Shown one piece after another: positions 28,616 to 43,003 of a DNA stretch of 64,000 bases (within the stretch, counting starts at the first letter, position 1; each line of letters starts with the position of its first letter). The position numbers were made by a program, and so were the translations under genes. A model generated the notes under the pieces. The model was not told the origin of the DNA and searched no databases. It saw only the letters and a list, made by a program, of their open reading frames with translations. Source of the stretch: Ulva prolifera (lineage: Eukaryota; Chlorophyta; Ulvophyceae; Ulvales; Ulvaceae); the NCBI GenBank assembly GCA_023078555.1, contig CM041198.1, forward strand, positions 10,917,874 through 10,981,873. Reading direction: 5' to 3'.

Positions 28616-28746
28616 TGTCACAATGCATGCGCCTACGGGCAGCAGTGTGGTGACAGGTGCACCCATGCATGATCGATCTGCGGGTCTAGTGCAGGGGTAA
28701 GCCGCCAGCGGGATTGTCCCGGAGTAGTGAGGGAGATCTTGTGAGT
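28616..28746 (+). repeat. older copia LTR, left half (split by insertion)
   Basis: Begins TGTCACAATGCATGCGCC right after the relic's polypurine tract. It diverges moderately from the intact element's LTR and is cut at TGAGT, where the intact element begins. It continues after the element at 35334. Confidence 0.75.
28742..28746. repeat. target-site duplication TGAGT (left)
   Basis: Repeated exactly at 35334-35338 on the other side of the copia element. Confidence 0.85.
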
Positions 28747-29101
28747 TGTCACAATGCATGAGCCTGCGGGCAGCAGTGTGGTGACAGGTGCACCCATGCA
28801 CGGACGATCCGCGGATCCAGTGTAGGGGTAAGCCGCCAGTCGGGATTGTCTCGATGTAGCGGGAGAGATCCCGCGAGGGTTTCCCGTCGTAACCTTGAGT
28901 GTTATGTGTTCAGTGTGCATATATGGATGTGCACACTGAGATCTGTAACCATTCTCTTTACTGTCTTACGGTACTAGCACTTCCCTTAAGCATCTCTCGG
29001 TTCTGCCTCTGTGCGCAGCAGGTATGAGATGCTGGCTGTCCTGACCTGACCTGAACAAGGACTGCGCGTCCTGACCTGCACAAATGATAGCTTTTCTGAC
29101 A
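28747..29101 (+). repeat. 5' LTR of copia 1
   Basis: 355 bp, TG...CA ends. Contains TATATGGATGTGCACAC followed within 15 bp by CTGTAACCATTCTCTTTAC. TGTAA is a plausible polyadenylation signal and TATATG a plausible TATA element. Confidence 0.95.
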
Positions 29102-29113
29102 TGGTATCGGTGA
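29102..29113 (+). other. primer-binding site of copia 1
   Basis: TGGTATCGGTGA starts immediately after the LTR. TGGTATC is the usual copia site complementary to the 3' end of initiator-methionine tRNA. Confidence 0.75.
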
Positions 29114-29410
29114 ATGTTAGCGTTATGTCTGTTTATGGTCTTGTTCAGGAAGCCGTCGGCCAATGTCTGTGCGCAGACACGGCGGGCATTCCACTGTTCT
29201 GCCGGCGCTCAGACTGCGGTCAAAAGCGCAGGCATCATTTAGCTCTCTCGTAGTATATTGTTGTTAGACACAATTCGAGAAGCTTGTTCAAATGATCAGC
29301 GCTGAGAAAAGCGAACGCGTTCGCTTGTTTTTCTCAACCTGTCGGCTTGCGAGCCAATCCCATCGGTTAGTTGCTGCGCGCGACGAAACAACCGTCTGTA
29401 TTAATGCAGG

Positions 29411-32400
29411 ATGTCTCTCTCCAACGCTAATTCTAACGCCAACTCTCCTCGCGAGGAGAGGCGTGACGATGCTGACCAGCAGCCTCTCGTCGCCAGGGAC
29501 GCTGACCAGCAGCTCCCTGACGGAGAACAGCCCGCGGGCATGTTGCTCCGTGGCGGACGAATTGTCCGGCCACGACCATCTTCCAATACTGGGCAGAGTA
29601 GCCAGCAGGTGCCTCATTCCTCTCATGTTGTGAACGATTCTGGTCACACTGAGTCTCTCATTTCACTCGCAACGTTGACTGAGGCGCTGCGCGCATCTCG
29701 AGGACGTAGCGAACCTGATTTGACAAAAGGAAAGTTGCCTGAGTGGAATTATAAGACTGAAAGCTTCGTTGCGTACGAGCAGAAAGTCTTTTTGTGGTTA
29801 GGCCAATTTGAGTTAGACCATTTGTTGCAGCACGCTCCGTCTGCGGACGAACAGCGTGTTCATGCTAGGGCGAGGACACAGGTCCTAATGTCTTTGCCTG
29901 ACGCGGATAGGACGACTGTCTATCGCATGTCACACCTGTGTGAAGCATGGTCTTACTTGACTGCCAAGTACAGACCTAGCACCGAAGCCGAAATCCACAG
30001 GTTGTGGAGTCGGTTCAATTCGTTATCACAACACAACAAGGACGTTGCGACGTATTGTGGTGAAGTGATGAGTGTTTACACTCAACTGGAGGCACTAGGT
30101 GCCGATGTGGGCCAGCGATGGCTTAGATTGAAACTTTTAGAAGTGGGGGAAGAGTTCAACGCTGTGCGCGGCGAAGTACTACACTCTTCCCCCCATGTAA
30201 TTATATCACGTTTAACCGAACACGCTGACCTGCTCAAACAACAGCGGCAGCTGCAGGCAAGGTCTGGGGCGCCCGCGGGCAAACCAGGCTGGCGCAAGCA
30301 GGCCCGTGGTGACGGTCCTGTGGTCGCCGCTCTCGCGGCTGGCCAGGCTCCTCGCGAGGAGACCAGGACCTGCTTCTTCTGCAAGAATAAGGGACATCTG
30401 CGTGCGAACTGCCCCCAACGCAAACAGGCTGCGGCCAAAGATGTTTGCACTGTTGAAATTCCTGAAAAATATCCCCAGCCAGACGCGTCTCTGCCGTGGA
30501 ACATCATTGTAGATAGTGGGTCGGACATGCATATCGTAGGCAATCGTGAGATGTTCACTGAGTACGGCCCGTGTCAGAAAGTTGCCAATCTCGCGGGACC
30601 AGGGCAGCTTTCGATCATGGGTAGGGGAACCATTCTGGTGAACCTGGGTACTTATGTAGACAAATGTGGGAACAAGCATCCGCTAGATGTGGAAATCCCT
30701 GGTGTTTATTACGCGCCTGAATGTCCGTACAACCTGCTCAGTACGATGGGTCTTAGGCATGAGCAGATGTTCCTAGACACGCGTAGAAATGTCTTGTATG
30801 TTCCTGGTCTGGGTGATATGGCTACCGACGTAGAGGACGACGTCAAGTATCAGGAACTTGATGTAGATGGTCACCCTGTCTTTGCTTTCAAAATGGCAGT
30901 AGAGACCAAACCTATTCTCGTCGGTGCGCCGGTCAATAGGGGGGTAGTCTGGTCTAACCAGAGCAGCCCAACCTCAGTTATTGAGGACCAACAGCAGTGG
31001 CATCATGTGGCGGTCGCGGCCGTTGACCTGAAGCGACCCAATGCTGGGGGAGCTGAGGTCCCACATGATGCGTACTTGCTGGAACCTGCATTTCTCGCAC
31101 ATTTGTCATTTCACCAGTCAACGTGGGTCCTCAAGCGTATGCAAGCCAACGCTGAGTTTTATGGTGATTTAAATTTGAAAGTTGATTCCGAGCCATTAGG
31201 GAATCGTTGTCATGGCTGCAGAATTGGCAAAGTGCCTGCGGGCAAATTTTCTGCCAATGATCGTGAGCTCATGGGCCAGGCCAAGTTTCCTGGTGAGCAA
31301 CTGCATGCCGATTTAGCTGGTACTGTCTCTCCTGTAGGAATTGGTGGTGTGAAGTATGTTTTGTTTGTGATGTGTGCCTTTACCCGTTATACTTTCGTGG
31401 TCGGTCTGCGCAAAAAGAGTGAGGCTGCGGCCATGATCTCTTATATTATCGAACGCATTCGGGTGAATGTGGTGAAGCCAGGTGAACCGTGTGTGCGCAT
31501 CCTACACACCGACAAAGGGGGAGAGTTCATGGTCGAGGCCTTAACACTCTACCTCCAGCGTCGTGGCATCACTCACCGCTTGACCCCCACAGCCGCTCAT
31601 CGCTGTAATGGCATGATTGAGCGGAGGATCGGAGTTGCCTTTGAGTCACTCCGTGCCGTGCTGCTCGCGAGCGGCCTGCCTCTGTTCCTGTGGATAGAAT
31701 GCCTCGCCGGTGTTGTACATGGTCACAATCTCACGCCGTCCTCGGCACTGTACCATGACAAATTGGCGAGTATCCTCAAATCTCAGAAAGGCCAGCATGC
31801 TGTCAACGCGTCTGCGGATGTTGACGAAGCTGAGCGGAGTTTGGGGAAGGGTAAGCGCATGAAAAAGGCCGAACGCGATAGGTTGAGGGAAGAGGAAAAA
31901 CGCAAGTACAAGTTGCTTGCGAAGACAGAGTTAGATGAGTTTTTGGTTCGGTCTTGTGATAAGGATATCATTCCTTACATGTCCTTTTTCAGAGACACCT
32001 CCGTTGAGGTGTTCCAAGATCTGCTGCGGCAGCAGCGTCCGTGGGGGGTTGAGGTGTATGCATACCCTAGGGATGACAAGCTGCGGAAGTTGTCCCAAAG
32101 GGGTGTCCTCGCATACTGGGTCGGGGCTGGGCTGGGCCCCAGCATGCAGCGTGTATACGCCCAGGATGTTCCTGGGGGTAGGGTTTTTGTTGTGCGCCAG
32201 GTTGTGTGCACTGCGGATCAGATGATCCGCCACGTACGAAAGTACGATGCGTCCGCCGTTGTGGACAAGAGAGAACCTGAGGAGTTTGCGAACTCCTATA
32301 CGGTTGTCTTCGAGGGTGACGATGAGGGTGAGCGTGTTACTGACGCCGATGTGCCTCCATTCGCGGCAGAACACACCTATGACGGGGGAGTGTTGCGCCG

Positions 32401-33010
32401 TCTGCGTGACCAGCTTCACACCCCCCCTGGTCATGGTAGGGTCTCTGTCATGGAAATGACATTCCGGCAGGACAACCCTGAGCCTAGTCCGGCTGTGTAC
32501 TCTCCGCGATTTGGAGCTGGCTCCACTGCGGAGATCGTCCGGCGTGACCCTTCTCGGGCCACACCGGAAATGGCCAGATCAGCTTTGCATCGCACGCGTG
32601 CGACATCCAGAGCTGCTGCTCACCCTGACGTCCCTGTCCCCCCTCGTGTGCGCGGCGAAGTGCATCACCCTGTCGCCACGCCCTCCCGCACTGCGCAGTA
32701 TGTCGTCACGCGCAATGCTGTGTTGCACGACCCTGGTGTAGAAGCTGCGTTCCCTGTTCAAGTGTCTGTCAGTGCGTCTGATGATGACATGGATGAGGAC
32801 GACGACAGTCCTGGCATCTATGACGACGATGATGAACAGCGCATGGACTACACCGTCTCAGATGATGAACGGGCTGCGGCCCATCAGAATCTGGAGGCTC
32901 AGCGGGTCCGTTCCGGGAGTAATTCGGCAGCGGCCTCAGCATCTGGCGCGGGGGCAGTTGCTCAGCCCCATGCGAGGAGCCGAGGCGCCGAGGCCCTTCT
33001 GGGCGGATGA
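29411..33010 (+). CDS. copia 1 polyprotein, gag-protease-integrase part
   Basis: 1199 residues. Order: gag with a helical core (EAEIHRLWSRFNSLSQHNKD), zinc knuckle CFFCKNKGHLRANC near 320, aspartic protease motif VDSGSD near 367, a pre-integrase region with CHGC, then an integrase core with D near 633 (HADLAG), D701 (HTDKGGEF) and E737 (GMIERR). The 35-residue D-E spacing is the classic DD35E. It makes the capsid, the protease and the enzyme that inserts the cDNA. An extra C in the C-run at 32966-32969, compared with copia 2, shifts the frame: the last 11 residues here are out-of-frame read-through, and the true continuation lies in the next frame. Confidence 0.93.
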   Translation: MSLSNANSNANSPREERRDDADQQPLVARDADQQLPDGEQPAGMLLRGGRIVRPRPSSNTGQSSQQVPHSSHVVNDSGHTESLISLATLTEALRASRGRSEPDLTKGKLPEWNYKTESFVAYEQKVFLWLGQFELDHLLQHAPSADEQRVHARARTQVLMSLPDADRTTVYRMSHLCEAWSYLTAKYRPSTEAEIHRLWSRFNSLSQHNKDVATYCGEVMSVYTQLEALGADVGQRWLRLKLLEVGEEFNAVRGEVLHSSPHVIISRLTEHADLLKQQRQLQARSGAPAGKPGWRKQARGDGPVVAALAAGQAPREETRTCFFCKNKGHLRANCPQRKQAAAKDVCTVEIPEKYPQPDASLPWNIIVDSGSDMHIVGNREMFTEYGPCQKVANLAGPGQLSIMGRGTILVNLGTYVDKCGNKHPLDVEIPGVYYAPECPYNLLSTMGLRHEQMFLDTRRNVLYVPGLGDMATDVEDDVKYQELDVDGHPVFAFKMAVETKPILVGAPVNRGVVWSNQSSPTSVIEDQQQWHHVAVAAVDLKRPNAGGAEVPHDAYLLEPAFLAHLSFHQSTWVLKRMQANAEFYGDLNLKVDSEPLGNRCHGCRIGKVPAGKFSANDRELMGQAKFPGEQLHADLAGTVSPVGIGGVKYVLFVMCAFTRYTFVVGLRKKSEAAAMISYIIERIRVNVVKPGEPCVRILHTDKGGEFMVEALTLYLQRRGITHRLTPTAAHRCNGMIERRIGVAFESLRAVLLASGLPLFLWIECLAGVVHGHNLTPSSALYHDKLASILKSQKGQHAVNASADVDEAERSLGKGKRMKKAERDRLREEEKRKYKLLAKTELDEFLVRSCDKDIIPYMSFFRDTSVEVFQDLLRQQRPWGVEVYAYPRDDKLRKLSQRGVLAYWVGAGLGPSMQRVYAQDVPGGRVFVVRQVVCTADQMIRHVRKYDASAVVDKREPEEFANSYTVVFEGDDEGERVTDADVPPFAAEHTYDGGVLRRLRDQLHTPPGHGRVSVMEMTFRQDNPEPSPAVYSPRFGAGSTAEIVRRDPSRATPEMARSALHRTRATSRAAAHPDVPVPPRVRGEVHHPVATPSRTAQYVVTRNAVLHDPGVEAAFPVQVSVSASDDDMDEDDDSPGIYDDDDEQRMDYTVSDDERAAAHQNLEAQRVRSGSNSAAASASGAGAVAQPHARSRGAEALLGG

Positions 33011-34961
33011 GCCAGATGAGGTGAAGACCGGGTCCGAATTAGGGGGAGAGGATGCGGACCCCTCAGCCGCAGTCGGGGTTGATTTGCCTGACGAGGTGAG
33101 GGCCATTCCAGCTGCCTTACCTCGTATTAAAATCAATCCCCTTGTACGCAGACGCCTTGTTCCATTGGCTGCGGATGTAGCAGCTGTACAAATGCATGAG
33201 CCTGCGGGCTCTGACATTGCTAGTAGTGAGACAGTTGTAGCTGCTATTGATGTTTCAGCTTGCGATCAGGACACATCAGCCGCGGCTGACTGTGGAGTGT
33301 CCTGTGCAGGCCTGAAGCCTCAGCATGTGGAGTCTGGTGAGCAGCAGAGTGTTCAGCGTCGTGGGTCGCGCCGAGCAGCTGCCGCCAGGAAGCAGAAGGC
33401 CTCCTCCGACCCTGATATGCCTTCTTTGAAGGAAGCACTCGCGAGTGCTGACAGGGATGCATGGCTGCGTGCCATGCAGGAGGAGGTAGATGCACTAGGT
33501 GAGCACGGAACCTTCGGGTTGTGCTATCTGCCTACGGGCAAACGGGCTATCTCGGGCAAATGGGTGCTTAAGATTAAGCGTGGGTCTGCGGGGGAGATTC
33601 AGCGCTATAAGGCACGTTATGTAGCGCGTGGTTTTTCTCAGGTAGAAGGAATTGACTTCTTTGAGACTTGGTCTCCTGTTGGTAGTTATGCGACACTGCG
33701 TGTGTTGCTGTCAGTTGCTGCTCAGGAAGATTTAGAGATCAGGCATGTAGACATTCAGTGCGCTTTTCTGAATGGTGAGCTGGAGGAGGAAGTGTTCGTT
33801 GAACAGCCCCCGTACTTCACTGACGGGACAGCACGTGTATGGAAATTGCATAAAACCCTGTATGGCCTGAAGCAAGCTGCTCGCGAGTGGCATAAAGCTT
33901 TAGTAAAGGTCCTAGCAGAGATGGGATTTGTGTGCGCACAAAGTGATCCCGGACTGTATGTTAGAACATCTGGTCTTTGTTTTATTTTTCTGTGGGTCGA
34001 CGACTTGTTCATATTCAGCGGCACTGCGGGGCTGCAAGAACTCGTCGACATAATTCTCACAAAATTGGAAGGCAGAGACCTGGGTGAACTAGCCTGGGCA
34101 CTTGGCACTGAGATCATGCGTGATCGTAAGGCCAAGACAATCACCATGACACAGCGAAACAAAATCCATAGCCTGCTTGAAAAGTACAGTATGTCTGATT
34201 GTCGAAAGTCTCCCACTCCGTTAGTGCCGCGGCAACAACTGAGGAGTGTGAAAGAGCATCCGGACCTGGAGAAAGCCAGTGCTGCTGAGCATTCCAGGTT
34301 CATGAGTGCTGTAGGAAGCATCCAGTACATTGCAGGAGTGACACGACCTGACCTCAGCTACGTGGCACATGCCCTGGCCCGGCACATGTCCAGTAGTCTG
34401 AAGGAACATTGGTTGGCTGTGCAACACGTTCTGAGATACCTGCAGTCCACAAAGAATTTAGGAATAAAATTTGTAGGCTCTGTGGGGCATGGGTGCCTGT
34501 TAGAGGCTTTTTCTGATGCAGATTTTGCGAACTCTTCTGATTTGAAGAGTGTATCTGGTATGGTTCTTCGAGTGTATGGGAACTGTGTTCTCTGGCGCTC
34601 GAAGAAACAGAGTATAGTGGCTGGGGATACAACAGAGGCTGAGCTCATTGCGATGAGTGCAACAGCCAACGAGCTGATGTGGGTGAAGCCGTTGCTTCTC
34701 GACCTAAAGCTCGTCCCGTATAAGCCAACTCTGTGGGGTGATAATAAAAGTTCTAATATCTTGGCAGTAAATGCTGTGTCCTCTGACAGATCCAAGCACA
34801 TTCGTGTGCGGCACTTGCGAGTGCGGGAATATGTCCAGATGGATGAACTTAAGGTAGCATGGGTGGGCACTGTTGATCAGTTAGCGGATGTGTTTACTAA
34901 AGTGCTGCCCGGACCTGCTTTGTTAGAAGTTCGTAATAAACTCCAGCTAGTGGAGACGTAG
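32970..34961 (+). CDS. copia 1 polyprotein, RT-RNase H part (frameshifted)
   Basis: Continues the polyprotein after the one-base insertion. It begins with an acidic linker and a KR-rich stretch (VQRRGSRRAAAARKQKA). The reverse transcriptase follows, with GKWVLKIKRG, YKARYVARGFSQVEG, TLRVLLSVAAQ, DIQCAFLNGELEEEVFVEQP, YGLKQAAREWH and the catalytic FLWVDDLFIF. RNase H motifs follow: SDADFANSSDLKSVSG, VAGDTTEAELIAMS, GDNKSSNILAVN and HIRVRHLRVREYVQ. It stops 17 bp before the 3' LTR. It copies the RNA genome into DNA and degrades the RNA strand. Without the frameshift it would be one ORF with the previous entry. Confidence 0.93.
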   Translation: MRGAEAPRPFWADEPDEVKTGSELGGEDADPSAAVGVDLPDEVRAIPAALPRIKINPLVRRRLVPLAADVAAVQMHEPAGSDIASSETVVAAIDVSACDQDTSAAADCGVSCAGLKPQHVESGEQQSVQRRGSRRAAAARKQKASSDPDMPSLKEALASADRDAWLRAMQEEVDALGEHGTFGLCYLPTGKRAISGKWVLKIKRGSAGEIQRYKARYVARGFSQVEGIDFFETWSPVGSYATLRVLLSVAAQEDLEIRHVDIQCAFLNGELEEEVFVEQPPYFTDGTARVWKLHKTLYGLKQAAREWHKALVKVLAEMGFVCAQSDPGLYVRTSGLCFIFLWVDDLFIFSGTAGLQELVDIILTKLEGRDLGELAWALGTEIMRDRKAKTITMTQRNKIHSLLEKYSMSDCRKSPTPLVPRQQLRSVKEHPDLEKASAAEHSRFMSAVGSIQYIAGVTRPDLSYVAHALARHMSSSLKEHWLAVQHVLRYLQSTKNLGIKFVGSVGHGCLLEAFSDADFANSSDLKSVSGMVLRVYGNCVLWRSKKQSIVAGDTTEAELIAMSATANELMWVKPLLLDLKLVPYKPTLWGDNKSSNILAVNAVSSDRSKHIRVRHLRVREYVQMDELKVAWVGTVDQLADVFTKVLPGPALLEVRNKLQLVET

Positions 34962-34978
34962 CAGGGTTTATGGGGGAG

Positions 34979-35333
34979 TGTCACAATGCATGAGCCTGCG
35001 GGCAGCAGTGTGGTGACAGGTGCACCCATGCACGGACGATCCGCGGATCCAGTGTAGGGGTAAGCTGCCAGTCGGGATTGTCTCGATGTAGCGGGAGAGA
35101 TCCCGCGAGGGTTTCCCGTCGTAACCTTGAGTGTTTTGTGTTCAGTGTGCATATATGGATGTGCACACTGAGATCTGTAACCATTCTCTTTACTGTCTTA
35201 CGGTACTAGCACTTCCCTTAAGCATCTCTCGGTTCTGCCTCTGTGCGCAGCAGGTATGAGATGCTGGCTGTCCTGACCTGACCGGAACAAGGACTGCGCG
35301 TCCTGACCTGCACAAATGATAGCTTTTCTGACA
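34979..35333 (+). repeat. 3' LTR of copia 1
   Basis: 355 bp, three differences from the 5' LTR. Followed by TGAGT, the right target duplication. Confidence 0.95.
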
Positions 35334-35635: not shown

Positions 35636-35640
35636 GCACT
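35636..35640. repeat. target-site duplication GCACT (left)
   Basis: Repeated exactly at 42999-43003 beyond the outermost LTR of the composite element. Confidence 0.85.
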
Positions 35641-35986
35641 TGTCAGAAAGCACTCTATCTGTCAGGTCAGACACGCAGTCTTAGGTCAGGTCAGGTAGCC
35701 AGCATTCCATACCTGCTGCGCACAGAGGTAGAACCGAGGAATGCGGGAGGAGACAAGATACAGCTAGTACCGTGAAACAGGAAAGAGAATGGTTACAGCT
35801 CTTAGTGTGCACGGCAATATATGCACACTGTAAACACTCGAGGGTTACGCCGGGAAACCCTCGCAGGATCTCTCTCGCTACCTCGATACGATCCTGGCTG
35901 GCGGCTTACCCCTGCACGTGATCCGCAGATCGTGCATGGGTGCACCTGTCACCACGCTGCTGCCCGCAGGCTCATGCATTGTGACA
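35641..35986 (-). repeat. 3' LTR of composite copia 2
   Basis: 346 bp. It differs from the outer 5' LTR only at three sites. The polypurine tract lies next to it at 35987-36000 (minus strand TTTATGGGGGAG). Confidence 0.93.
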
Positions 35987-36003
35987 CTCCCCCATAAACC
36001 CTG

Positions 36004-37299
36004 CTAAGTCTCCACTAGCTGGAGTTTATTACGAACTTCTAACAAAGCAGGTCCGGGCAGCACTTTAGTAAACACATCCGCTAACTGATCAACAGTGCCC
36101 ACCCATGCTACCTTAAGTTCATCCATCTGGACATATTCCCGCACTCGCAAGTGCCGCACACGAATGTGCTTGGATCTGTCAGAGGACACAGCATTTACTG
36201 CCAAGATATTAGAACTTTTATTATCACCCCACAGAGTTGGCTTATACGGGACGAGCTTTAGGTCGAGAAGCAACGGCTTCACCCACATCAGCTCGTTGGC
36301 TGTTGCACTCATCGCAATGAGCTCAGCCTCTGTTGTATCCCCAGCCACTATACTCTGTTTCTTCGAGCGCCAGAGAACACAGTTCCCATACACTCGAAGA
36401 ACCATACCAGATACACTCTTCAAATCAGCAGAGTTCGCAAAATCTGCATCAGAAAAAGCCTCTAACAGGCACCCATGCCCCACAGAGCCTACAAATTGTA
36501 TTCCTAAATTCTTTGTGGACTGCAGGTATCTCAGAACGTGTTGCACAGCCAACCAATGTTCCTTCAGACTACTGGACATGTGCCGGGCCAGGGCATGTGC
36601 CACGTAGCTGAGGTCAGGTCGTGTCACTCCTGCAATGTACTGGATGCTTCCTACAACACTCATGAACCTGGAATGCTCAGCTGCACTGGCTTTCTCCAGG
36701 TCCGGGTGCTCTTTCACACTCCTCAGTTGTTGCCGCGGCACTAACGGAGTGGGAGACTTTCGACAATCAGACATACTATACTTTTCAAGCAGGCTATGGA
36801 TTTTGTTTCGCTGTGTCATGGTGATTGTCTTGGCCTTACGATCACGCATGATCTCAGTGCCAAGTGCCCATGCTAGTTCACCCAGGTCTCTGCCTTCAAA
36901 TTTTGTGAGAATTATGTCGACAAGTTCTTGCAGCCCCGCAGTGCCGCTGAATATGAACAAGTCGTCGACCCACAGGAAAATAAAACAAAGACCAGATGTT
37001 CTAACATACAGTCCGGGATCACTTTGTGCGCACACAAATCCCATCTCTGCTAAGACCTTTATTAAAGCTTTCTGCCACTCGCGAGCAGCTTGCTTCAGGC
37101 CATACAGGGTTTTATGCAATCTCCATACACGTGCTGTCCCGTCAGTGAAGTACGGGGGCTGTTCAACGAACACTTCCTCCTCCAGCTCACCATTCAGAAA
37201 AGCACACTGTATATCTATGTGTCTAATTTCTAAATCTGCCTGAGCAGCAACTGACAGCAACACACGAAGTGTCGCATAGCTCCCAACAGGTGACCAAGT
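36004..37299 (-). pseudogene. copia 2 RT-RNase H after in-frame stop
   Basis: Same frame as the following entry, downstream of its stop codon. It retains the RT motifs QCAFLNGELEEEVFVEQP, YGLKQAAREWQ and FLWVDDLFIF and all RNase H motifs seen in copia 1, at well over 90% protein identity. Apart from the upstream stop this part looks functional. Confidence 0.9.
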
Positions 37300-40200
37300 C
37301 TAAAAAAAGTCTACACCCTCTACCTGAGAAAAACCCCGCGCTACATAGCATGCCTTGTAGCGCTGAATCTCCCCCGCAGGCCCACGCTTGATCTTGAGCA
37401 CCCATTTGCCCGAGATAGCCCGTTTGCCCGCAGGCAGATAGCACAACCCGAAGGTTCCGTGCTCACCCAGTGCATCTACCTCCTCCTGCATGGCACGCAG
37501 CCATGCATCCCTGTCCGGACCCGCAAGTCCTTCCTTCATAGAAGGCATATCAGGGTCGGAGGAGGCCTTCTGCTTCCTGGCGGCAGCTGCTCGGCGCGAC
37601 CCACGACGCTGAACACTCTGCTGCTCACCAGACTCCACATGCTGAGGCTTCAGGCCTGCACAGGACACTCCACAGTCAGCCGCGGCTGATGTGTCCTGAT
37701 CGCAAACTGAAACATCAATAGCAGCTACAACTGTTTCACTACTAGCAATGTCAGAGCCCGCAGGCTCATGCATTTGTACAGCTGCTACATCCGCAGCCAA
37801 TGGAACAAGGCGTCTGCGTACAAGAGGATTGATTTTAACACGAGGCAAGGCGGCTGGAATGGCCCTCACCTCGTCAGGCAAATCAACCCCAACTGCGGCT
37901 GAGGGGTCCGGATCCTCTCCCCCTAATTCGGATCCGGTCTCCACCTCATGTGGCTCATCCTCCCAGAAGGGCCTCGGCGCCTCAGCTCCTCGCAAGGGCT
38001 GAGCAACTGCCCCTGCGCCAGATGCTGAGGCCGCTGCCGAATTACTCCCAGAACGGACCCGCTGAGCCTCCAGATTCTGATGAGCCGCAGCTCTTTCATC
38101 ATCTGAGACGGTGTAGTCCATGCGCTGTTCGTCATCGTCATCATAGATGCTGGGACCGTCGTCATCCTCATCCATGTCCTTGTCAGACGCACTGACAGAC
38201 ATTGGAATGGGGAACGCAGCTTCTACACCAGGGTCGTGCAACACAGCATTGCGCGTGACAACATACCGCGCAGTGCGAGAGGGCGTGGCGACAGGATGAT
38301 ACACTTCGCCGTGAACACGAGGGGGAGCAGGGACGGCAGGGTGAGCAGCAGCTCTGGACATTGCACGCGTGCGATGCAAAGCTGCTCTGGCTATTTCCGG
38401 TGTTGCCCTAGCAGGGTCACGCCGGATAATCTCCGCAGAGGAGCCAGCTCCAAACCGTGGAGAATGCACAGCCTCACTAGGCTCAGGGTTATCTTGCCGG
38501 AAAGTCATTTCCATGACAGGAACCCTACCATGACCAGGGGGGGTGTGAAGCTGGTCACGCAGACGGCGCAACACTCCCCCGTCATAGGTGTGCTCTGCCG
38601 CGAATGGAGGCACATCAGCGTCAGTAACACGCTCACCCTCATCGTCCCCCTCGAAAGCAACCGTGTAGGAGTTCGCAAACTCCTCAGGTTCCCTCTTGTC
38701 CACAACGGCGGACGCATCGTACTTGCGTATGTGCCGGATCATCTGATCCGCAGTGCACATCACCTGACGCACAACAAAAACCCTACCCCCAGGAACGTCC
38801 TGGGCGTATACACGCTGCATGCTGGGGCCTAACCCAGCCCCGACCCAGTATGCAGGCACACCCCGCGGGGACAACTTCCGCAGCTTGTCATCCCTAGGGT
38901 ATGCATACACTTCAACCCCCCATGGACGCTGCTGCCGCAGCAGATCTTGGAACACCTCAACGGAGGTGTCACGGAAAAAGGCCATATAAGGAATGATATC
39001 CTTATCACAAGACCGCACTAAAAACTCATCTAATTCTGTCGTCGCAAGTAACTTGTACTTGCGTTTCTCCTCATCCCTCAACTTATCGCGCTCGGCCTTT
39101 TTCATGCGCTTACCCTTCCCCAGGCTCCGTTCAGCTTCGTCAACGTCCGCAGACGCATTGACAGCATGCTGAGCTTTCAGGCCCTTGAGGATGCTCGCCA
39201 GTTTGTCATGGTACAATGCCGACGATGGCGTGAGATTGTGACCATGGACAACGCTGGCGAGGCATTCTATCCACAGGAACAGAGGCAGGCCGCTCGCGAG
39301 CAGCACATCACGGAGTGACTCAAAGGCCACTCCGATCCTCCTCTCGATCATGCCATTACAGCGATGAGCGGCTGTGGGGGTCAAGCGGTGAGTAATGCCA
39401 CGACGCTGGAGGTAGAGTTTTAAGGCCGCGACCATAAACTCTCCCCCTTTGTCGGTGTGTAGGATGCGCACACCCGGTTCACCTGGCTTCACCACATTCA
39501 CCCGAATGCGTTCGATAATATAAGAGATCATGGCCGCAGCCTCACTCTTTTTGCGCAGACCTACCACGAAAGTATAACGGGTAAAGGCACACATCACAAA
39601 CAAAACATATTTCACACCACCAATTCCTACCGGAGAGACAGGACCAGCTAAATCGGCATGCAGTTGCTCACCAGGCCACTTGGCCTGACCCATGAGCTCA
39701 CGATCATTGGCAGAGAAGTTACCCGCAAGCACCTTGCCAATTCTGCAGCCGTGACACCGATTCCCCAATGGCTCGGAATCGACATCCAAATTCAAATGAC
39801 CATAAAATTCACTGTTAGATTGCATACGTTTCAGAACCCAATTAGACTGATGAAAAGACAAGTGTGCTAGAAAAGCAGGTTCCAGCAAGTATGCATCATG
39901 TGGGACCTCAGCTCCCCCAGCATTGGGTCGCTTCAGGTCAATGGCCGCAACCGCCACATGATGCCACTGCTGCTGATCCTCAATAACTGAGGTCGGACTG
40001 CTCTGGTTAGACCAGACTACCCCACTATTGACAGGCGCACCGACGAGAATGGGTTTCGTATCTACCGCCATTTTAAAAGCAAAAACAGGATGACCGTCTA
40101 CATCTAATTCCTGATATTTGACGTCATCTTCCACGCCGGTAGCCATATCGCCCAGACCAGGGACATACAACACATTCCTACGCGTGTCTAGGAACATCTG

Positions 40201-41559
40201 CTCTGATCTAAGACCCATCGTGCTGAGCAGGTTGTACGGACATTCAGGGGCATAGTAAACACCAGGGATTTCCACATCCAGTGGATGCGTATTCCCATGC
40301 TTGTCCACATAAGCACCTAGGTTCACCTGAATGGTTCCCCTACCCATGATAGAAAGCTGCCCTGGTCCCGCGAGATTGGCAACTTTCTGACACGGGCCGT
40401 ACTCAGTGAACATTTCCCGATTTCCTACTATATGCATGTCCGACCCACTATCAACAATGATGTTCCACGGCATGGACGCGTCCGGCTGTGGGTACTTGGC
40501 AGGCATTTCAATAGTGCAAACATCTCTGGCCGCAGCCTGTTTGCGTTGGGGGCAGTTCGCACGCAAATGTCCCTTCTTCTTGCAGAAGAAACAGGTCCTG
40601 GTCTCCTCGCGAGGAGCCTGGCCAGCTGCGAGAGCAGCGACCACAGGGCCGTCACCACGGTGCTGCTTGCGCCAGCCATGGCCTGGTTTGCCCGCGGGCG
40701 CCCCAGACCTAGCCTGCAGCGACCGCTGTTGTTTGAGCAAATCAGCATGCTCAGTCAAACGGGCTATTATCACATGAGGGGAGGAGTGTTGGACTTCGCC
40801 GCGCACAGCGTTGAACTCCTCCCCCACCTCTAACAGTTTCAATCGAAGCCATCGCTGGCCCACATCGGCACCTAGTGCCTCCAGTTGAGTGTAAACACTC
40901 ATCACTTCACCACAATACGTCGCAACGTCCTTGTTGTGCTGTGATAACGAATTGAACCGACTCCACAACCTGTGGATTTCGGCTTCGGTGCTAGGTCTGT
41001 ACTTAGCAGTCAAGTAGGACCATGCTTCACACAAATGTGACATGCGATAGACAGTCGTCCTATCCGCGTCAGGCAAAGACATTAGGACCTGTGTCCTCGC
41101 CCTAGCATGAACACGCTGTTCGTCCGCAGACGGTGCGTGCTGCAACAAATGATCTAATTCGAACTGACCTAACCACAAAAAGACTTTCTGTTCGTACGCA
41201 ACGAAACTTTCAGTCTTGTAATTCCAATCAGGCAGTTTCCCTTTAGTCAAATCAGGTTCGCTACGACCCCGAGATGCGCGCAGCGCCTCGGTTAACGTCT
41301 CGAGTGATATGAGTGACTCAGTGTGACCAGGATCGTTCACAACATGAGAGGAAAAAGGCACCTGCTGACTGCTCTGCCCAGTGTGGGAAGAGGGTCGTGG
41401 CCGGACAATTCGGCCGCCCCGGAGCAACATACCCGCAGGCTGTTCTCCGTCAGGGAGCTGCTGGTCAGCATCCCTGTCGACGAGAGGCTGCTGGTCAGCA
41501 TCGTCACGCCTCTCCTCGCGAGGAGAGTTGGCGTTGGAGTTGGCGTTGGAAAGAGACAT
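37300..41559 (-). pseudogene. copia 2 gag-protease-integrase-RT start, ends at nonsense codon
   Basis: 1419 residues on the minus strand. It contains gag, CCHC (CFFCKKKGHLRANC), protease VDSGSD, integrase HTDKGGEF and GMIERR, and the acidic linker in one continuous frame. This shows that the copia 1 frameshift is a lesion, not a family feature. It stops within the RT at VEGVDFF, where copia 1 has GAG (Glu) and this copy has TAG. The polyprotein is therefore truncated at the RT fingers and could move only by complementation. Confidence 0.92.
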
Positions 41560-41854
41560 CCTGCATCAGGACAGATGGTTGTTTGTCGCGCGCAGCAACT
41601 AACCAGTGGGATTGCTCGCAAGCAAACAGGTTGAGAGAACAAGCGAACGCGTTCGCTTTTCTCAGCGCTGATCATTAAAACAAGCTTCTCGAATTGTGTC
41701 TAACAACAATATGCTACGAGAAAGCTAAATGATGCCTGCGCTTTTGACCGCAGTCTGAGCGCCGGCAGAACAGTGGAATGCCCGCCGTGTCTGCGCGCAG
41801 ACATTGGCCGACGGCTTTCCTGAACAAGACCATAAACAGACATAAACGCTAACA

Positions 41855-41866
41855 TCACCGATACCA
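41855..41866 (-). other. inner primer-binding site of copia 2
   Basis: Minus strand TGGTATCGGTGA directly follows the inner LTR, identical to copia 1. Confidence 0.7.
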
Positions 41867-42219
41867 TGTTAGAAAAGCTATCTTTGTGCAGGGCGGACGC
41901 GCAGTCCTCATTCAGGTCAGGTCAGGACAGCCAACATCTCATACCTGCTGCGCACAGAGCTAGAACCGAGAGATGTTGAAGGGAAGTGCTAGTACCGGGA
42001 AACAGTAGAGAGAATGGTTACAGATCTCAGTGTGCACATGCTTATATGCACACTGAACACTCAATACTCAAGGTTACGGCGGGAAACCCTCGCACGATCT
42101 CTCTCACTACATCGAGACGATCCTAGCCGGCGGCTTACCCCTACACTGGATCCGCGGATCGTTCGTGCATGGGTGCACCTGTCACCACACTGCTGCCCGC
42201 AGGCTCATGCATTGTGACA
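41867..42219 (-). repeat. internal LTR (copia 1 subfamily) inside composite copia 2
   Basis: 353 bp, minus-strand TGTCACAATG to TTTTCTAACA (one end mutated from TGACA). It is closer to the copia 1 LTR than to the outer LTRs that enclose it. Its 5' end joins the outer gag fragment with no duplicated bases visible, because the other junction is missing. Confidence 0.9.
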
Positions 42220-42345
42220 GCCCTCGGGCTGCTCTCCACCAGGGAGCTGCTGGTGAGCGCCCCTGTCGACGATAGGCTGCTGATCAGCCTCGCCGCGAAT
42301 CTCCTCGCGAGGAGAGTTTGAAGCTGAGCGGTTGGAGTGAGACAT
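42220..42345 (-). pseudogene. truncated gag start of the outer element (42 codons)
   Basis: Minus-strand frame MSHSNRSASNSPREE to GEQPEG, homologous to the first 43 residues of the full gag (MSLSNANSNANSPREE). It is interrupted by the internal LTR. The leader upstream (42346-42640) matches the inner leader. Confidence 0.85.
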
Positions 42346-42640
42346 CCTGCAGTAGAACAGGCGGTTGTGCGTCGCGCGCAGCAACGAAGCAAAGGTTTGG
42401 CTCGCAAGCCGTCGGATTGGAAAAATAAGCGAACGCATTCGCTTTTCTCAGCGCTAATCATTTGAAACAGCTGCTCGAATTGTATCTAATAACAATATGC
42501 CACGAGACAGCTAATGATACCTGAGCTTATTGACCGCAGTCTAAGCGCCGGCAGAACAGTGGAATGCCCCGCCGAGTCTGCGCACAGACATTGGCCGAAG
42601 ACTTCCTGAACAAGACCATAAAAAGACATAACGTAAACGA

Positions 42641-42652
42641 TCACCGATACCA
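42641..42652 (-). other. outer primer-binding site of copia 2
   Basis: Minus strand TGGTATCGGTGA next to the outer 5' LTR. Confidence 0.7.
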
Positions 42653-42998
42653 TGTCAGAAAGCACTCTATCTGTCAGGTCAGACACGCAGTCTTAGGTCA
42701 GGTCAGGTAGCCAGCATTCCATACCTGCTGCGCACAGAGGTAGAACCGAGGAATGCGGGAGGAGACAAGATACAGCTAGTACCGTGACACAGGAAAGAGA
42801 ATGGTTACAGCTCTTAGTGTGCACGGCAATATATGCACACTGTAAACACTCGAGGGTTACGCCGGGAAACCCTCGCAGGATCTCTCTCGCTGCCTCGATA
42901 CGATCCTGGCTGGCGGCTTACCCCTACACGTGATCCGCAGATCGTGCATGGGTGCACCTGTCACCACGCTGCTGCCCGCAGGCTCATGCATTGTGACA
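42653..42998 (-). repeat. 5' LTR of composite copia 2
   Basis: 346 bp. The minus-strand start TGTCACAATGCATGAGCC is shared with all family A LTRs. Followed on the plus strand by GCACT. Confidence 0.93.
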
Positions 42999-43003
42999 GC
43001 ACT

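Follow-up and report, generated by a model that had tools for sequence, protein, structure and literature searches.

A three-LTR copia unit in Ulva prolifera that is probably a collapsed same-strand nest

Introduction

Within the window analysed here, a 64-kb stretch of the Ulva prolifera genome, a Ty1/copia unit carries a third LTR. A complete LTR of one subfamily (A) lies inside the gag of an element bounded by LTRs of another subfamily (B), and the question is whether this unit was inserted once, as a chimera, or was built in place by more than one event. Template-switching complexes of Angela, Squiq and Opie also have three LTRs, together with matching outer LTRs and a flanking duplication (PMC1950507), and the latter two features have been used to distinguish such complexes from the products of recombination between neighbours (Sabot and Schulman 2007, PMC1950507). 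A sequence-only reading of the locus had called it one inserted unit and had offered two models, (1) insertion of one element into the gag of another, with the inner 3' LTR and outer pol lost afterwards, and (2) switching between co-packaged RNAs.

Results

Structure of the unit

All coordinates are positions within the window, and the unit reads on the minus strand. Direct reading and a script gave the order LTR_B, B leader and 42 gag codons, complete LTR_A, A-type gag-pol and LTR_B, with the following features:

42999..43003, minus strand: target-site duplication AGTGC on the element's 5' side (flank comparison)
42653..42998, minus strand: outer 5' LTR, subfamily B, 346 bp
42220..42652, minus strand: B leader and first 42 B gag codons, with primer site TGGTATCGGTGA at 42652
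42345 through 42220, minus strand: B gag, 42 codons from the ATG at 42345
41867..42219, minus strand: complete inner LTR of subfamily A (353 bp), which begins precisely where gag is broken
37700..41866, minus strand: A-type primer site, leader, gag, protease region, integrase and start of reverse transcriptase
36508..37699, minus strand: interval containing the A-to-B switch (strict fixed sites)
37300..37302, minus strand: in-frame stop codon in reverse transcriptase
35987..36508, minus strand: B-type pol end and polypurine tract (diagnostic sites)
35641..35986, minus strand: outer 3' LTR, subfamily B, 346 bp (B state at diagnostic sites)
35636..35640, minus strand: target-site duplication AGTGC on the element's 3' side (flank comparison)

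As the sequence-only reading had it, the outer LTRs are 346 bp long, differ at three sites and are flanked by matching duplications, AGTGC on both sides; at each of the three it is the 5' LTR that differs from the state found in 18 or 19 of 19 B copies. The complete LTR of the other subfamily (42219-41867) does follow 42 codons of gag and is followed by its own primer site, TGGTATCGGTGA, and a BLAST search with both LTRs found no second LTR_A within the unit. The first internal domain, from the B LTR to LTR_A, is only 433 bp long, and it matches all 20 fetched B copies at 96.1-98.6%. The inner gag-pol had been described as full; it is present, but it is split by the reverse transcriptase stop at 37302-37300 and does not form one open frame.

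Family identity and size

Pfam matches place the integrase ahead of a copia-type reverse transcriptase, the domain order of Ty1/copia elements. In the inner gag-pol, Pol_BBD scored above its cut-off, while the gag and integrase matches fell just below theirs (integrase core, residues 631-731, 30.8 bits, slightly under the cut-off of 32.6). The start of RVT_2, from residue 1371, reached 25.4 bits, below the cut-off of 31.6, and RVT_2 in the next frame piece reached 136 bits. The primer-site pattern fits six places in the genome; at one of them, C10:1882405-1882475, the primer site would pair with the 3' end of a tRNA-like stretch, which was picked by eye as a candidate initiator tRNA-Met.

In the 88.9 Mb assembly (44 contigs), 371 LTR-primer and 304 polypurine-LTR junctions were found with up to 3 mismatches, and reversed-pattern controls for both junctions gave 0 matches. 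Twenty B copies were fetched from 26 B gag matches among 40 scored candidates. A 5-bp target duplication, AGTGC at the three-LTR unit, is present in 17 of these 20 and absent in L011, L012 and L013. Identity between the two LTRs of a copy reaches 99% or more in 16 of the 19 B copies measured (exceptions L012, L013 and L028) and in 5/5 A copies, one of them across 323 bp only. The copia family is thus large and young.

Some B copies are unusual in their own right. L025 (5106-8508) is internally deleted, has both LTRs and the duplication and is possibly non-autonomous, and L013 (1228-7806) has LTRs that are 84% identical, with an insertion and without a duplication. L011 and L012, about 53 kb apart, share a 5' flank (12 bases seen) and a 5' half and have different 3' halves without a target duplication, probably through ectopic recombination or duplication.

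The junction between gag and the inner LTR

A 29-base pattern spanning 42220/42219 was found once in the assembly at up to 3 mismatches, and the reversed-pattern control gave 0 matches. When 40 of 1200 first-look candidates were scored, 26 other matches had the gag side only, starting exactly at the break, and 13 had the LTR side only, with ends no more than 5 bases away from it; the pattern search is the stronger test of uniqueness because this scoring covered only 40 of the 1200. A single copy is the outcome that the sequence-only reading had tied to local recombination. A mobile three-LTR lineage was rejected as the main reading, since the junction was found once, without copies having different flanks.

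The gag target is uninterrupted at the break in 20/20 fetched B copies, so the inner element begins exactly at its LTR terminus, as integration leaves it, and there would be no reason for random template jumping to produce such an end. On the left side the inner target sequence, AGGGC, is present; the right-side copy is absent along with the part that was lost. Switching between co-packaged RNAs, the second model of the sequence-only reading, leaves this junction unexplained when taken alone, because a full U3-R-U5 LTR is joined at its exact terminus to gag.

A reverse-transcription origin in a wider sense would be a template jump between pol regions, starting from the transcript of a nested locus or from two co-packaged RNAs, with the resulting three-LTR cDNA integrated once at AGTGC. 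We consider such an origin unlikely: it requires a nested DNA source having the exact junction, and none other was found in the assembly search.

Subfamily states along the unit

Strict diagnostic sites were the 425 fixed differences between four A copies (L030-L033) and 18 B copies; L025 was omitted from the alignment (internal deletion) and L012 from the strict site count (its 3' half is of another subfamily). With this many fixed differences and an empty reversed-pattern control for the junction, the three-LTR structure lies well outside what chance would produce. The inner LTR has the A state at 23/23 sites and is unmixed. The inner body from 41866 to 37699 has the A state at 357 of 359 sites, the others being one B and one neither. 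Between 37698 and 35987 the pol end has the B state at 18/18 sites, the first at 36508, and the outer 3' LTR at 25/25, so that the 3' end overall is B at 43/43. The sole lasting A-to-B change among the 425 sites therefore lies between 37699 and 36508, and the comparison with pure subfamily members that had been proposed for mapping the breakpoint bounds it to this interval but does not place it exactly. From less strict sites, the switch probably lies upstream of 37062.

From 37699 to 37062, about 640 bp, there is no consistent A/B difference. Pol copies this similar are also where an assembler could have merged a nest that is complete in the genome, and the switch probably falls in this stretch. 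Nevertheless, assembly collapse appears very unlikely, given that nests retaining the inner 3' LTR were assembled elsewhere (L034 and L037 with L040) and that contigs are up to 12.7 Mb long.

The unmixed inner LTR also bears on recombination between two neighbouring, independently inserted elements, against which it counts. Such recombination probably does occur in the family (L011 and L012, with the same 5' flank, different 3' halves and no duplications), but here it is contradicted by the AGTGC pair, a chance 5-base match being expected about once in 1000, and we regard it as scarcely credible.

Of the 24 copies compared, L011 comes closest to the 3' B part (37061-35641), at 11 differences and one gap in 1422; for the 5' B part it ties with L012 at 12 differences in 779. 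Private sites numbered 2 in the 353 bp of the inner LTR, 11 in 4167 bp of A internal sequence, 3 in the 638 bp from 37699 to 37062, 1 in 1075 bp of B pol and 0 in the 346 bp of the B 3' LTR. Dating the inner against the outer insertion from these counts was rejected as uninformative because the comparison drew on 5 A copies but 19 B copies.

Mosaic copies with A-type LTRs

B-like pol stretches were found in three of the eight other A-LTR copies examined (L030-L033, the inner element of L034, L035, L042 and a neighbour in the window at 28747-35333), a sample that is not random, L042 having been fetched as the top-ranked nearest copy over 38400-35987. L035 has A LTRs and is B-like from 37777 to 35956; L042 is mostly B-like from 37062 or earlier to 36358 and then mostly A again; the window neighbour is mostly B-like from 36604 to 36067. 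The target duplications of L035 and the neighbour are intact, so these copies were either mobile in mosaic form or acquired their B-like stretches by conversion in place. Judging from these mosaic pol genes, subfamily exchange occurs in the copia family. The mosaic pol of the two duplication-bearing copies could be read in favour of a reverse-transcription origin of the three-LTR unit, although gene conversion in place could also produce it.

The window neighbour is a plus-strand family member with A-type LTRs (3 differences in 355) and the duplication TGAGT, and a truncated LTR fragment lies directly next to it, at 28616-28745. It lies about 300 bp from the three-LTR unit in inverted orientation. 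Over 36508-35987 it differs from the unit at 3/522 positions, fewer than any of 10 B copies, the nearest of which (L011) differs at 4/522. Because of this proximity, orientation and similarity, the two may have undergone local gene conversion. It may also be that the A element was a mosaic already when it inserted, in which case the crossover could lie elsewhere in the B-like pol. The A-to-B switch is thus weakened as a clean mark of a crossover, whose position can be bounded and not exactly placed.

Other nests and close LTR pairs in the genome

Nesting in gag recurs in this genome. In L034 an A element is nested in the gag of another A-type copy on the same strand, with the inner duplication GCTGG on both sides and the outer gag resuming beyond the inner element. 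In L037 with L040 an A element is nested on the same strand in a B-like copy with CCCGC on both sides; the outer 5' LTR is 88.6% identical to LTR_B, and two plus-strand polypurine-LTR junctions lie beyond, as expected of inner and outer 3' LTRs. Both same-strand nests retain the inner 3' LTR, their outer elements having been read partway. L015 is a B element nested on the opposite strand in an A-like gag (GGCAC). In L041 the gag of a more distant copy holds an A-type element, read without its 3' end. The three-LTR unit looks like the L034 arrangement minus one repeat.

Among 213 junctions listed of the 371 counted, at least 12 same-strand LTR-primer pairs less than 6.3 kb apart were found, the three-LTR unit included. 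None of the five fetched from the other 11 close pairs (L034, L035, L036, L037 and L041) could be shown to be a collapsed nest (L041 read without its 3' end), and with 5 of 11 pairs read and 213 of 371 junctions listed, the genome may hold further collapsed nests. One of the copies read, L035, is a complete element behind an LTR that is just 79% like A. The LTR-primer pairs on C1 and C7 that share a spacing of about 1547 bp were considered as a mobile nest and rejected as coincidence, because in L041 the outer copy is more distant and the point of insertion differs.

Several local arrangements were noted in passing. In L041 (1642-1659) the first 18 bases of the LTR are duplicated immediately ahead of the full LTR, and in L036 (5534-9253) two identically flanked LTRs are spaced 3.37 kb apart, which points to a tandem duplication at that locus. 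At about 6.2 kb, the distance within two pairs of same-strand LTR-primer junctions (G000:C3:10092402/10098659 and C3:4338592/4344768) is that expected for tandem arrays sharing an LTR. Pairs 3.2-5.1 kb apart (G000:C1:12649154, C3:3777536, C4:4048972 and C5:409600) are candidates for further nests or collapsed nests.

Discussion

The three-LTR unit is probably a collapsed same-strand nest, formed by insertion of an A element into B gag and subsequent recombination between the two pol regions. A B-subfamily copia element would first have integrated at AGTGC, a step evidenced by the flanking duplication. An A-subfamily element would then have integrated into the B gag after codon 42, a step evidenced on the left side only, by the exact LTR terminus, the right inner duplication being gone. 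Finally, homologous recombination between the direct pol copies, A upstream and B downstream, would have removed the inner 3' LTR together with the duplicated target and, as far as the crossover, the outer gag-pol, so that a single hybrid pol and the B 3' LTR remained; that the loss took this route is inferred. Two insertions and one deletion fit the data, and the description as one inserted unit is probably wrong. Of the two models first offered, the better fit is the first, in which one element enters the gag of another and the inner 3' LTR and outer pol are then lost.

This collapsed nest is supported by the single junction, the target intact in all 20 B copies, the unmixed inner LTR, the sole lasting A-to-B change, the standing of L011 as nearest or joint nearest copy to both B parts, and the presence of L034-type nests. 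Against it stand the mosaic pol of A-LTR copies, such that the A-to-B change may predate the deletion, and the closer match of the A-LTR neighbour than of the nearest B copy over 36508-35987. All three outer-LTR changes fall in the 5' LTR, a slightly uneven split, and mutation counts give no separate dates for the two parts.

Comparison with known systems shows likenesses and differences. As in the nested LTR retrotransposons of PMC6911290, one element lies inside another, here in gag, but the present unit, unlike those, no longer has its inner 3' LTR and outer body. The multi-LTR units of PMC5379124 likewise have more than two LTRs per unit, but they repeat internal regions, and here the first internal region is merely 433 bp. 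Recombinant copies formed in transposition bursts of one LTR family (PMC5668417) likewise have mosaic internal regions in a young family; unlike those recombinants, the present unit has a third LTR as a separate feature.

The closest parallel is with template switching. Both marks of those complexes (Sabot and Schulman 2007, PMC1950507) are seen in the three-LTR unit, which has a flanking duplication and outer LTRs that are nearly identical, and they speak for an origin by reverse transcription. However, the Angela, Squiq and Opie complexes have two complete internal domains (PMC1950507), whereas here the first is cut short at 433 bp by an exact LTR terminus, and the inner LTR, A at every diagnostic site, is not the chimera looked for at a switch. 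An identical structure would result if reverse transcriptase had jumped while copying a nested transcript. There is a small chance that a chimeric three-LTR cDNA, made by such a jump between the pol copies of a nested transcript, was integrated as a unit; if true, this would extend the published template-switching marks to a further route, and chimeric units could yield hybrid-LTR progeny, the inner LTR driving RNAs that end in the B 3' LTR.

Nesting with internal deletion, the route preferred here, satisfies the same two marks as template-switching complexes. A statement to this effect was not found in the literature searched and may still be published. For annotation this calls for caution, as an element that has three LTRs, the outer two matching, between perfect flanking duplications can be taken for a single chimeric insertion. 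Since nests keeping the inner 3' LTR and A/B mosaics are present in the same genome, likely intermediates and products can be directly compared. In a retrotransposon family as young and crowded as this one, such a collapsed nest appears to be an unremarkable product, and not a new mobile kind.
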